Source: Microcella sp. (GTDB lineage: Bacteria > Actinomycetota > Actinomycetes > Actinomycetales > Microbacteriaceae). From it: 46,439 nucleotides of DNA. Positions 1-16,395 of the stretch are shown here, in pieces. The notes below the pieces were generated by a model. It was not told where the DNA came from, made no database searches, and worked only from the letters and a program-made list of their open reading frames with translations. The stretch is taken from positions 1 to 46,439 of the forward strand of contig JAOASR010000099.1 of the NCBI GenBank assembly GCA_030158585.1, read 5' to 3'. The position numbers and the translations under genes were made by a program. Position 1 is the first letter of the stretch; every line of letters begins with the position of its first letter.

Positions 1-2
1 GC

Positions 3-110
3 TCAGCGCATAAAGCGAAGGATCAGCCGTTACACCACTTCCAGGGACTTGACCCGCTCGGCGACTTCGACGCCCTGGCCGACGCCCTCGAGGATGACGA
101 GCCCTTCTAG
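3..110 (+). CDS. C-terminal end of a protein starting upstream of the window (probable mobile-element protein, function unknown)
   Basis: Frame 3 is open from the window edge: SAHKAKDQPLHHFQGLDPLGDFDALADALEDDEPF*, acidic tail, stop tag at 108-110. Precedes the iteron-like repeat block. Confidence 0.5.
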   Translation, partial: SAHKAKDQPLHHFQGLDPLGDFDALADALEDDEPF

Positions 111-146
111 GGCGGCTTCGATACCGAGAGGGACACAGCATGGGAT

Positions 147-327
147 ACCCGCAACACCCGCATTACCCGCGATCTGCGGGTGTTGCGGGTATCCCTGCAC
201 TCGTCACCCGCAGAACACCCGCACGACACCCGCACCTAAACCGCCGCCCTGCGGTCGGCATGAGTGCACACCGGTCGACCGTGGTCGACTGTGGTGCATC
301 GGTGCGGGTGTTGCGGGTGTCGCGGGT
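147..327. repeat. Cluster of 11 ACCCGCA/TGCGGGT heptamers on both strands (iteron-like)
   Basis: Forward copies at 147,156,165(ACCCGCG),206,217,228; reverse copies at 175,184,303,312,321(CGCGGGT); mostly 9-bp or 11-bp periodicity. Includes a perfect 21-bp inverted repeat 142-162/175-195. Confidence 0.85.
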
Positions 328-608
328 ATCCGAAACGGGCAATCTCAGGATGGTCAGCCGACTCGACACGTCAGGTCGCCGCCGTCAGCTGCTCGAATCG
401 GGGGCGCACTCGGAGGTACACCCCGCCCCCGAGCGACCCCGTTTTCTTAAAGATCGCCCCTCAGCACCCCGCCCCCATCTGCCATTTTTACGCGGGAGTC
501 CCAGACATTTCGGGGGATTTCCGGCGATAGGCGGGGAAACGTCCCGATCGTTTCCGATTCGCGGGGATTCGCCCTAGTTCTTGTTCTTCCCCTGGGCACA
601 GCAAAGCT

Positions 609-1000: not shown

Positions 1001-2430
1001 GATGCCACCGCCGCGCCGAGCGCTCGGAGGTTGTCGTCGTTGACGAGCACGTATCGCTGCGTCGTCGTCGGGCTGGCATGGCCGAGGAACCTCTGCACCG
1101 CGAACACGTCGCGGTCGATGCTGTAGGCCCGAGTCGCGAACCGGTGCCGCAGCGCGTGCATTGACACACCCTCGGGCAGTAGGCCCGTGACGAGCTTCGC
1201 GACATAGGCCGCGCTCAGGTGCCCGCCTCGAGGGTTCGGGAACAGGTACCCCTCGCCGCGTGCGCGCAGGCTCGTGGCGAGCTCGGCAGTGAGCGGCACC
1301 CGTCGCTGTCGCGATCCCTTGCCATGCACGGTCAGCCACCATTGATCGTCGCCGGGCAGTCGCATGAGGTCGCGGGAGTGCACCTGTGCGACCTCGGCAC
1401 GGCGCAGGCCCAGCTCTGCCGCGAGTCGGATTGCCAGCCGCTCGCGCTCGGTGGCTTTCGCCAGCGCTGCCGATAGCTCGTGCTCGAGGGCGGGTCGAGG
1501 GCGGGGCTGACTGGCCGCGACTCGAGGCAGTGCCGCTGCGGGGCTGGCCTCGACTCTGCCCGTCGCCTCGGCCCACCGATAGAACGCGACGACCGCCGAG
1601 CGGTGCCCGCGCCGAGTCTCTGCCGCCCACCGCTTACCGCCCAGCCACTCGAGCAGGTCGTCGAGGCTCAGCTCGTAAGGTTCGAGGCTGGGATGCTCGC
1701 GCCCCAACCGCTCGAGCTGCGCGCGGCGCAGGCGCAGCGTCGAGGCGGGTCGACCCTGGGCGCGCTCGGCGCGCAGGTATGCGTGAATCTCGCGCGCCCA
1801 CTGAGGCGGGGCGCCGAGGTGCAGCGGGTGCACGGTGTCCTCGTTCGTCGGGTTGACCGCGACCCGCTGGGCGGTGTGCGCCCACCGGTAGAACGCGCGC
1901 ACGCTCGAGCGATGCGCCAGCCGCGTTGGCTCGCTCACCGGCAGAGCATCCAGCCACCCGCGCACCTCGACGCCCTGCACCTCCCAAGGTGCCAGCTGTA
2001 GCGCGCTCGCCATGCGCGACACGTGCTTCACCCGCTGCGCAATGGTCGCCGGGGCGATCCGCTGGCGCGCCTGCGCTGTCTCGAAGTCGTGCAGGGCATC
2101 CTGCCACCGAGCGTCGAGCGCGTACCGGCTCGGCGACGCTGGCGCAGGCATGGGGCTGACCTCGACGAGCGATGCCTGCTCGGCCCACCGATAGAACGCC
2201 CGCAGGGTGATGCGCTCACCCTTCACCGTGGCCGCCGACCCTCGGTGCTCGTCGAGCCACCGCCGCAGCTGCGCCGTCGTGACTGCTGACGGGGTGCCGC
2301 CGAAGTGGGCCGCGATCCGCCACAGCTGGCGCACCTGCCGAGCGACACTGCTCGCCGCTAGTCCCTTGTCGTGTTGATCCGAAGCGAACGCGCGTAACGC
2401 ATCCGACCACGTGACCGCTGTCTCTGTCAT
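997..2430 (-). CDS. Tyrosine recombinase/integrase with three tandem N-terminal core-binding-like repeats (477 aa)
   Basis: Start MTETAVTW with GAGGAG upstream. Catalytic motifs LGLRRAE, HALRHRF, LGHASPTTTQRY. Three repeats each ending in FYRWA (aa 79-83, 180-184, 283-287). Confidence 0.92.
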   Translation of the reverse strand: MTETAVTWSDALRAFASDQHDKGLAASSVARQVRQLWRIAAHFGGTPSAVTTAQLRRWLDEHRGSAATVKGERITLRAFYRWAEQASLVEVSPMPAPASPSRYALDARWQDALHDFETAQARQRIAPATIAQRVKHVSRMASALQLAPWEVQGVEVRGWLDALPVSEPTRLAHRSSVRAFYRWAHTAQRVAVNPTNEDTVHPLHLGAPPQWAREIHAYLRAERAQGRPASTLRLRRAQLERLGREHPSLEPYELSLDDLLEWLGGKRWAAETRRGHRSAVVAFYRWAEATGRVEASPAAALPRVAASQPRPRPALEHELSAALAKATERERLAIRLAAELGLRRAEVAQVHSRDLMRLPGDDQWWLTVHGKGSRQRRVPLTAELATSLRARGEGYLFPNPRGGHLSAAYVAKLVTGLLPEGVSMHALRHRFATRAYSIDRDVFAVQRFLGHASPTTTQRYVLVNDDNLRALGAAVAS

Positions 2431-2646: not shown

Positions 2647-2691
2647 TCTTCCAAACTGATGGTGCGGGTTCGATTCCCGTCATCCCCTCCA
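2647..2691 (+). repeat. att core: 3' portion of tRNA-Gly(TCC) from anticodon loop to CCA
   Basis: tcttccaaactgatggtgcgggttcgattcccgtcatcccctcca: anticodon loop CTTCCAA, T-arm, 3' acceptor strand, CCA. Upstream sequence gives neither the 5' acceptor strand nor a proper anticodon stem. Confidence 0.8.
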
Positions 2692-15192: not shown

Positions 15193-16395
15193 GTGTCTGT
15201 CTACGAATCAACGAGCTTCCGTCGGAGCATCCGCGGATACGACACCGACGAGGTGGATGCTCGTTTCACGGAGATGGAGCGGCGGCTCAGCGAAGTGGCG
15301 CGCGAGAATCTCGAGCTCAACGATCGACTGTACGAGCGGGAACGCGAGCTGCAGAAGACCCTGAGAGACCTCGCCGTTGCGCAGACCACGCGCCCGCGCT
15401 CCACGTTCGCGGACCTCGGTGGCGAGTTCGAGTCGACCCTGCGCATGGCAGAAGAGCAGGCCCGACAGATTCGCGAAGGCGCCCAGAACGAGGCGACTGA
15501 GACGATCATGTCGGCGAGGGAGGATGCCGGAAGGCTTCGCGACAGCGCCATGCGCGACGCCCAATCGCTCCTCGTCGAGAGCCAGCGTCGATCCGAGACG
15601 CTGCAGAGCGAGGCCGAGGCCATCAACGCCCGCGCTGAGCTGGAGAGCGCCGAGCTCGTCGCGAAGGCGAAGCTCGAACTCAGCAGCGCCGAGCGCGCCG
15701 CCACAGCCCAGGTTCTCAAGGCCGAGAAGACCGCATCCGCGATCATCGCTGCAGCGACCCGCGAGGCGCAGGAGCTGAAGGAGCGCACGGAGCAGACCGT
15801 GCGCGAAGCCCTCGACTCGATCGCCGAGGAGCAGGCGAAGCTGCGCGAGCAGGAAGCCGAGTTCGAGTCGCGCCGCACCCAGGTCGAGGAATGGATCCTC
15901 ACCTCGGAGGCGTCACAGCGCGAGAAGGACGCGGCCGCAGAGCAGCGCCGCGCGCAGATGGACGAGGAAGCGCAGAGCGTGCTCGAACGTGCGCACTCCG
16001 AGGCCGACGACCACGTGCGCTCTGCCGTGGACCGCGCGACCACGCTGCGGGCCGACGCCGACGCTCGCGTCACAGCGGCCGACGCCCGGGCGCGCTCGAT
16101 CATCAACGAAGCCCAGCTCGCCGCCGACACGATGGTGACTGCGGCGACGTCGAAGGCTCACAGCCTGGCGCAGCGCACTGATCAGCTGGCCGCCGAGATG
16201 CTGCGAGAGGCCGAGATGCAGCTCGCCGAGGCTCGCCATCGCAAGTCCACGATCAATCACTTCGTCGACGACGTGCGTGAGATCTTGAGCGCCGACGTCA
16301 TCACCGCAACGATCGACGACGCGGAGACGCGGATGGTGCAGACAGAGACCTCGGGCCAGGGAAGCCGAGCGCGAGCGCTCGAGGCCGCCGACTGA
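15193..16395 (+). CDS. DivIVA-domain coiled-coil protein (400 aa, GTG start)
   Basis: SFRRSIRGYDTDEVDARFTEMERRLSEVARENLEL followed by a long heptad-rich coiled coil; GAGGAG upstream of GTG. Confidence 0.85.
   Translation: MSVYESTSFRRSIRGYDTDEVDARFTEMERRLSEVARENLELNDRLYERERELQKTLRDLAVAQTTRPRSTFADLGGEFESTLRMAEEQARQIREGAQNEATETIMSAREDAGRLRDSAMRDAQSLLVESQRRSETLQSEAEAINARAELESAELVAKAKLELSSAERAATAQVLKAEKTASAIIAAATREAQELKERTEQTVREALDSIAEEQAKLREQEAEFESRRTQVEEWILTSEASQREKDAAAEQRRAQMDEEAQSVLERAHSEADDHVRSAVDRATTLRADADARVTAADARARSIINEAQLAADTMVTAATSKAHSLAQRTDQLAAEMLREAEMQLAEARHRKSTINHFVDDVREILSADVITATIDDAETRMVQTETSGQGSRARALEAAD

Follow-up and report, generated by a model that had tools for sequence, protein, structure and literature searches.

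Which function can be assigned to a block of short repeats near the beginning of a Microcella contig, and to which genetic element does it belong? The window analysed here (46,439 nucleotides) is the entire contig C99 of a 2.1-Mb MAG assembly with 188 contigs. An earlier note, made from the letters alone, had described an eleven-copy array in this place and had offered an iteron replication origin, a partition site or a repressor/relaxosome site as its possible function. Taking together the evidence given below, we consider it quite probable that the array (142-331) is the iteron replication origin of a mobile island integrated at a tRNA-Gly(TCC) gene; of the offered options the origin is strongly favoured, on account of the helicase tail and the Prim-Pol gene upstream and of the homologues with arrays 3′ of their genes.

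The array comprises eleven copies of the hexamer ACCCGC, which span 147-327 and are grouped, as had been claimed, into three forward, two reverse, three forward and three reverse copies. The first group (147-171, plus strand) has its starts at 147, 156 and 165, the second (175-190, minus strand) at 176 and 185, the third (206-234, plus strand) at 206, 217 and 228 and the fourth (303-327, minus strand) at 304, 313 and 322, giving start-to-start steps of 9, 9, 11, 9, 21, 11, 11, 76, 9 and 9 bp. The heptamer ACCCGCA named in the earlier note is exact in nine of the copies, while the two at 165 and 322 read ACCCGCG. The perfect 21-bp inverted repeat with a 12-nt spacer was found as well (142-195, arms 142-162 and 175-195). 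When the whole window was simulated 40 times with a second-order Markov model, the top cluster of ACCCGC per 190 bp had 4 copies compared with the 11 observed, and the top cluster of any hexamer had 8. The array is therefore real, with a copy number far above chance, and it is not a simple repeat of variable length, an objection that had been raised in advance. Open frames cross the block, none of which we judge to be gene-like. The iteron groups on either side of the 67-bp spacer face inward, and this spacer has 33% AT versus 29% for the whole window.

The gene in front of the array is interrupted by the assembly. Positions 1-54 (plus strand) are the right end of an insertion sequence (IS) of the IS256 family, with what are apparently the last transposase codons (LSA and a stop) followed by the terminal inverted repeat, and the assembly breaks here. 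The same 54 bp also open contig C128 and, reverse-complemented, close contig C102, with differing flanks; they are identical to a stretch of the Microbacterium plasmid pYJNG, and similar ends occur in other plasmids, where they are annotated as IS256 family. Two other interpretations of this start were rejected: that it is an integrase attachment region, as a start common to three contigs might suggest, since the 54 bp are the IS end, and that the element belongs to IS110, as an annotated IS110 transposase just upstream in pYJNG might suggest, by comparison with IS256 ends. The IS is followed by an 8-bp target-site duplication, CGCTCGGC (55-62), and contig C10, which terminates in the left end of the IS, carries the identical 8 bp beside it. 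The IS end in the window and the end of C10 likewise share an imperfect terminal repeat, AGTCCC...AGTGGTGTAAC, while the flanks of the other two right ends read TGGAGGAG and CCGTGCTC, unlike CGCTCGGC.

Joining the two IS flanks with one copy of the duplication gives an open frame that continues in frame through ...SHSKLWRVVSADRADALGDFDALADALEDDEPF to the stop at 110. The window thus holds the 3′ tail of a replication helicase gene of the island (55-110, plus strand, ending in ...GDFDALADALEDDEPF and the stop codon 108-110), and the remainder of this gene lies at about 43-1560 of C10 (minus strand), where the frame runs into the IS left end. Because the duplication is common to both sides, the IS ends match and the join is in frame, the array can be placed directly 3′ of the helicase gene, starting (142) 32 bp past its stop; the contigs are not physically joined in the assembly and the connection is deduced from these three features. 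The statement that the array follows the end of an element protein gene therefore holds for 55-110 only, because 1-54 belong to the insertion sequence. The helicase has a Walker A motif (P-loop) of the sequence GEQGTGKST. No significant Pfam, PHROG or NCBIfam match was found for it, and searching proteins with only the tail of the gene was uninformative, the query being too short. Its start is overlapped on C10 by a Prim-Pol gene (1557-2309, minus strand, 250 aa, PF09250 with 6e-35). In a family-wide search for Prim-Pol this genome gave one copy, which is this one, at the far end of C10 from an intact tRNA-Gly gene.

This intact tRNA-Gly(TCC) gene (C10, 17624-17695) lies by a second, different integrase gene and next to tRNA-Pro. 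In the window, an att repeat of 43 bp (2647-2689, plus strand) is identical to the tRNA-Gly(TCC) 3′ end and marks the right boundary of the island, and five relatives have the empty site, in which tRNA-Pro and tRNA-Gly are followed by the sequence found right of the att repeat. From the intact gene, the att repeat and the empty sites we take C10 and C99 to be the two ends of the island; as far as can be told from the sequences, what occupies tRNA-Gly is either a single island or islands in tandem. The two different integrase genes (C10, 16050-17444, and window, 997-2538) are both transcribed inward from the tRNA-Gly repeats, and an island with a different integrase at each end may be composite or may represent two tandem islands. 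Between the replication genes and the integrase gene of C10 an operon for a sugar-type ABC transporter is found, together with a SIS-domain regulator and a tyrosine phosphatase (L009, 4251-11255); the transporter operon is possible island cargo.

Downstream of the array two genes of the minus strand precede the att repeat. The first (674-1000) is convergent with the helicase gene and encodes a DUF6907-like protein of 108 aa (PF21848, E=8e-4, which is under the curated cut-off). The second (997-2538) encodes the tyrosine integrase with three SAM-like N-terminal domains (PF00589 with 1.5e-17, three PF02899 stretches, phrog_1 integrase). Relatives of this integrase from the same genus match its C-terminal half only. 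Both proteins are unlikely binders of the array. Direct and inverted short repeats between convergent genes would also suit the operator of a cooperative repressor that acts on these genes or on helicase expression. However, the array is situated at the 3′ ends of both flanking genes with no obvious promoter, its eleven copies over 180 bp exceed ordinary operators, and such arrays recur at the 3′ ends of primase-helicase genes (see below), so that we give the operator the smallest chance of all the alternatives considered.

Lambda-type integrases use arm sites, which are short sites in direct and inverted groups. The 9-11-bp-spaced iterons resemble such arms and the integrase gene is the nearest large intact gene, and hence arm-type or excisionase binding sites for this integrase had to be considered. 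The array lies, however, 2.3 kb from the att repeat (2647-2689) and not within the few hundred bp expected for such arms, and no ACCCGC arrays lie near the integrase relatives found in three genomes from the same genus. Moreover, a 50-bp module consisting of iteron group 4 and CGGGCAATCTCAGG (300-349, plus strand) is also found near a different integrase on C10, in two copies with 92% identity (15451-15500 and 15735-15784). We therefore regard arm sites as very improbable. Within the inferred island the two C10 copies are oriented opposite to the copy in the window. They belong to two 284-bp direct repeats (C10, 15440-16000; L009, 12440-13000), each of which opens with an ACCCGC triplet and CGGGCAATCTCAGG, and the integrase beside these repeats carries an Lsr2-like DNA-binding domain. 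The triplet modules of C10 adjoin this other integrase, without an adjacent primase gene, and may be remnants of the origin of a second island. A pattern scan of genome contigs for the module common to C10 and C99 gave only chance-like matches from unrelated phyla. Downstream of a related integrase in another genome (L060, 5861-5954; G408:C61) four 24-bp palindromic repeats, GGGTACGTCTsGCGTACC, were observed; they were rejected as a counterpart of the array, being different and palindromic, and are likely a different operator or origin.

If the array is the origin that belongs to the helicase, similar arrays should be found beside homologous genes, and the earlier note had asked whether relatives keep the genes and lose the array. 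Comparable arrays of short iterons are present 3′ of the gene in 10 of 13 further homologues, namely in nine Streptomyces plasmids, pFP11 and pFP12 among them, and one viral contig (L132). In five of the Streptomyces plasmids 11-14 iterons of the GCGTCA or CGTCCC type lie directly 3′ of the helicase gene in both orientations, and in four more, including pFP11, 9-14 iterons are found one small gene further 3′, where the simulation maxima are 6-8. The homologue encoded on L132 has 31% identity over 478 aa (E=4e-27) and is followed, 13 bp past its stop, by ACCCGC iterons. No such array was found within 360 bp in the Microbacterium phage Zeta1847, the archaeal plasmid pH6Ac and one large Streptomyces plasmid; pSTS2 (L282), of which the 360 bp downstream were also looked at, was left out of the count of 13. 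The recurrence of the arrays thus extends to most relatives, while the iteron sequence mostly differs from ACCCGC among the ten array-bearing homologues. A position that is kept while the sequence changes is what would be expected, judging from these comparisons, for a co-evolving initiator and origin. A blastn search of the array against phages and plasmids gave no significant match.

The Streptomyces plasmids with theta-type replication loci resemble the island in that their helicase gene has a Prim-Pol gene in its vicinity and is followed downstream by 9-14 short iterons of both orientations; the window helicase has 40% identity to the protein of pFP11 and about 30% to that of pFP12 and the array-adjacent group. 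They are, however, plasmids, and their iterons are of other types (GCGTCA or CGTCCC, for example), whereas the element of the window is a tRNA island in the chromosome, whose iterons read ACCCGC and whose helicase gene carries an IS. The RepA proteins of pFP1, pFP11 and pWTY27 bind their own iterons (PMC3583192). For pFP11, this published iteron-binding RepA is not equated here with the homologue matched by the window helicase.

We also looked for ACCCGC iterons in the viral contigs of IMG/VR. Doublets of ACCCGC that are opposed outward at a distance of 52-82 bp were found in 21 contigs, and none was found in the inward arrangement used as the control. In about 15 of these contigs the array lies within about 32 bp of the end of an ORF that is long or truncated by the contig, and those ORFs beside the doublets which could be classified are primase-helicases (D5_N/DUF5906 and phrog_29234); an earlier triplet scan had given cases with Prim-Pol (L132) and DUF927 (L094). 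The apparent prevalence of ACCCGC in these phages is partly ascertainment, as the hexamer was the bait of the searches, and is no proof that it is the commonest iteron. The phage primase-helicases (D5_N, DUF927, Prim-Pol and phrog_29234) share with the window ACCCGC copies at 9-11-bp spacing, mostly within about 30 bp of the stop. They differ in that their arrays mostly consist of three reverse and three forward copies directed outward from an AT-rich stretch, and most of the proteins are not close homologues of the window helicase. In 18 of 19 cases the comparison spacer exceeds its own locus in AT content, mostly by a wide margin, while the spacer in the window has the composition given above and lies between inward-facing groups, an arrangement for which no match was found in IMG/VR. 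By this comparison the window array appears not to be a member of this geometric class and would only work like it. Within the Microbacteriaceae, D5_N genes (6 of 117 genomes) have no ACCCGC arrays at their 3′ ends, and family-wide triplet scans gave mostly repeats of one strand which are apparently coding. In one other Microbacteriaceae genome (L235, G062) a D5_N primase-helicase gene is followed, after one small gene, by short repeats of the GGCACCC type in both orientations.

These surveys also bear on two other types of repeat. The main rival of the origin is a partition site, a centromere for a ParB-like protein or a ParA partner: clustered short repeats suit centromeres, and the Streptomyces plasmids with homologous helicases carry a ParA gene and a small partner gene beyond the array. 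However, those parts of the island that were examined yielded no ParA gene, and the constant neighbour in the phage set is the primase-helicase, with its stop mostly within 32 bp, which makes a partition site improbable in our opinion. Repeats of the clt type, by which an FtsK-like conjugal translocase (TraB/TRS) recognises its DNA in Streptomyces plasmids and AICEs, were considered since TraB recognises repeated 8-bp motifs and the clt loci of pJV1 and pWTY27 contain short GC-rich direct repeats (PMC3583192). No FtsK/TraB gene is found among the ORFs examined on the island, which is incompletely assembled. Arrays of the same hexamer stand behind replication helicase genes in viral contigs, which are not expected to conjugate, and we think there is very little chance that the array is a clt locus.

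The replication origin remains the preferred assignment, and its best reading, by analogy, is an origin of the kind known from SaPI and SCCmec elements and from the Streptomyces theta plasmids. The island has a P-loop helicase and a primase, the iterons are directly downstream, and the position of the array is conserved beside homologous genes. SaPI iterons flank an AT-rich stretch, which the spacer of the window is not. As in the SaPI Rep/ori and SCCmec Cch2 modules, the helicase gene is followed directly 3′ by the iterons, while helicase family, host phylum and iterons are other ones. In SaPI and SCCmec elements the helicase uses its C-terminal domain to bind iterons that lie directly behind its own gene (PMC7581432). 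For two C-termini, of the L132 homologue and of one phage analogue, the predicted folds have a winged-helix topology. The matches of one whole-protein model in the PDB include the SaPI5 primase-helicase and its dsDNA complex, with low TM-scores, and those of the isolated L132 domain are weak and not significant.

We propose that the C-terminal winged-helix domain of the helicase would bind the 9-11-bp-spaced ACCCGC iterons, that helicase assemblies would load at the array, possibly two of them in opposite directions, and that the neighbouring Prim-Pol would prime synthesis after excision of the island. The IS has been inserted later; it splits the helicase gene from the proposed origin and swaps the acidic tail of the helicase. 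Since it lies about 16 codons ahead of the helicase stop, beyond the apparent winged-helix region (...SHSKLWRVVSAD), the DNA-binding domain is not obviously destroyed, and the origin in the window may be active or moribund.

Iteron origins that lie next to the gene of their own replication helicase are an already known kind, to which the window adds an example. The less expected part is that one hexamer is found beside different helicase classes, and in a literature search no paper on ACCCGCA origin iterons was found. It is conceivable, though rather doubtful, that ACCCGC at about 9-bp spacing is an origin "code" common to several classes of mobile-element primase-helicases (D5_N, DUF927, phrog_29234 and the actinobacterial Prim-Pol/helicase) in distant hosts and read by one type of C-terminal winged-helix domain. 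If this were true, origins could be located throughout genomes, and one element might be able to use that of another. The recurrence of the hexamer makes a testable prediction on the DNA read by these C-terminal domains. For the island itself, the analysis names a likely initiator and a likely origin of an otherwise anonymous actinobacterial element, and it suggests a way to spot the replication origins of integrated islands and phages, which is to look just past the stop codons of their primase-helicase genes.
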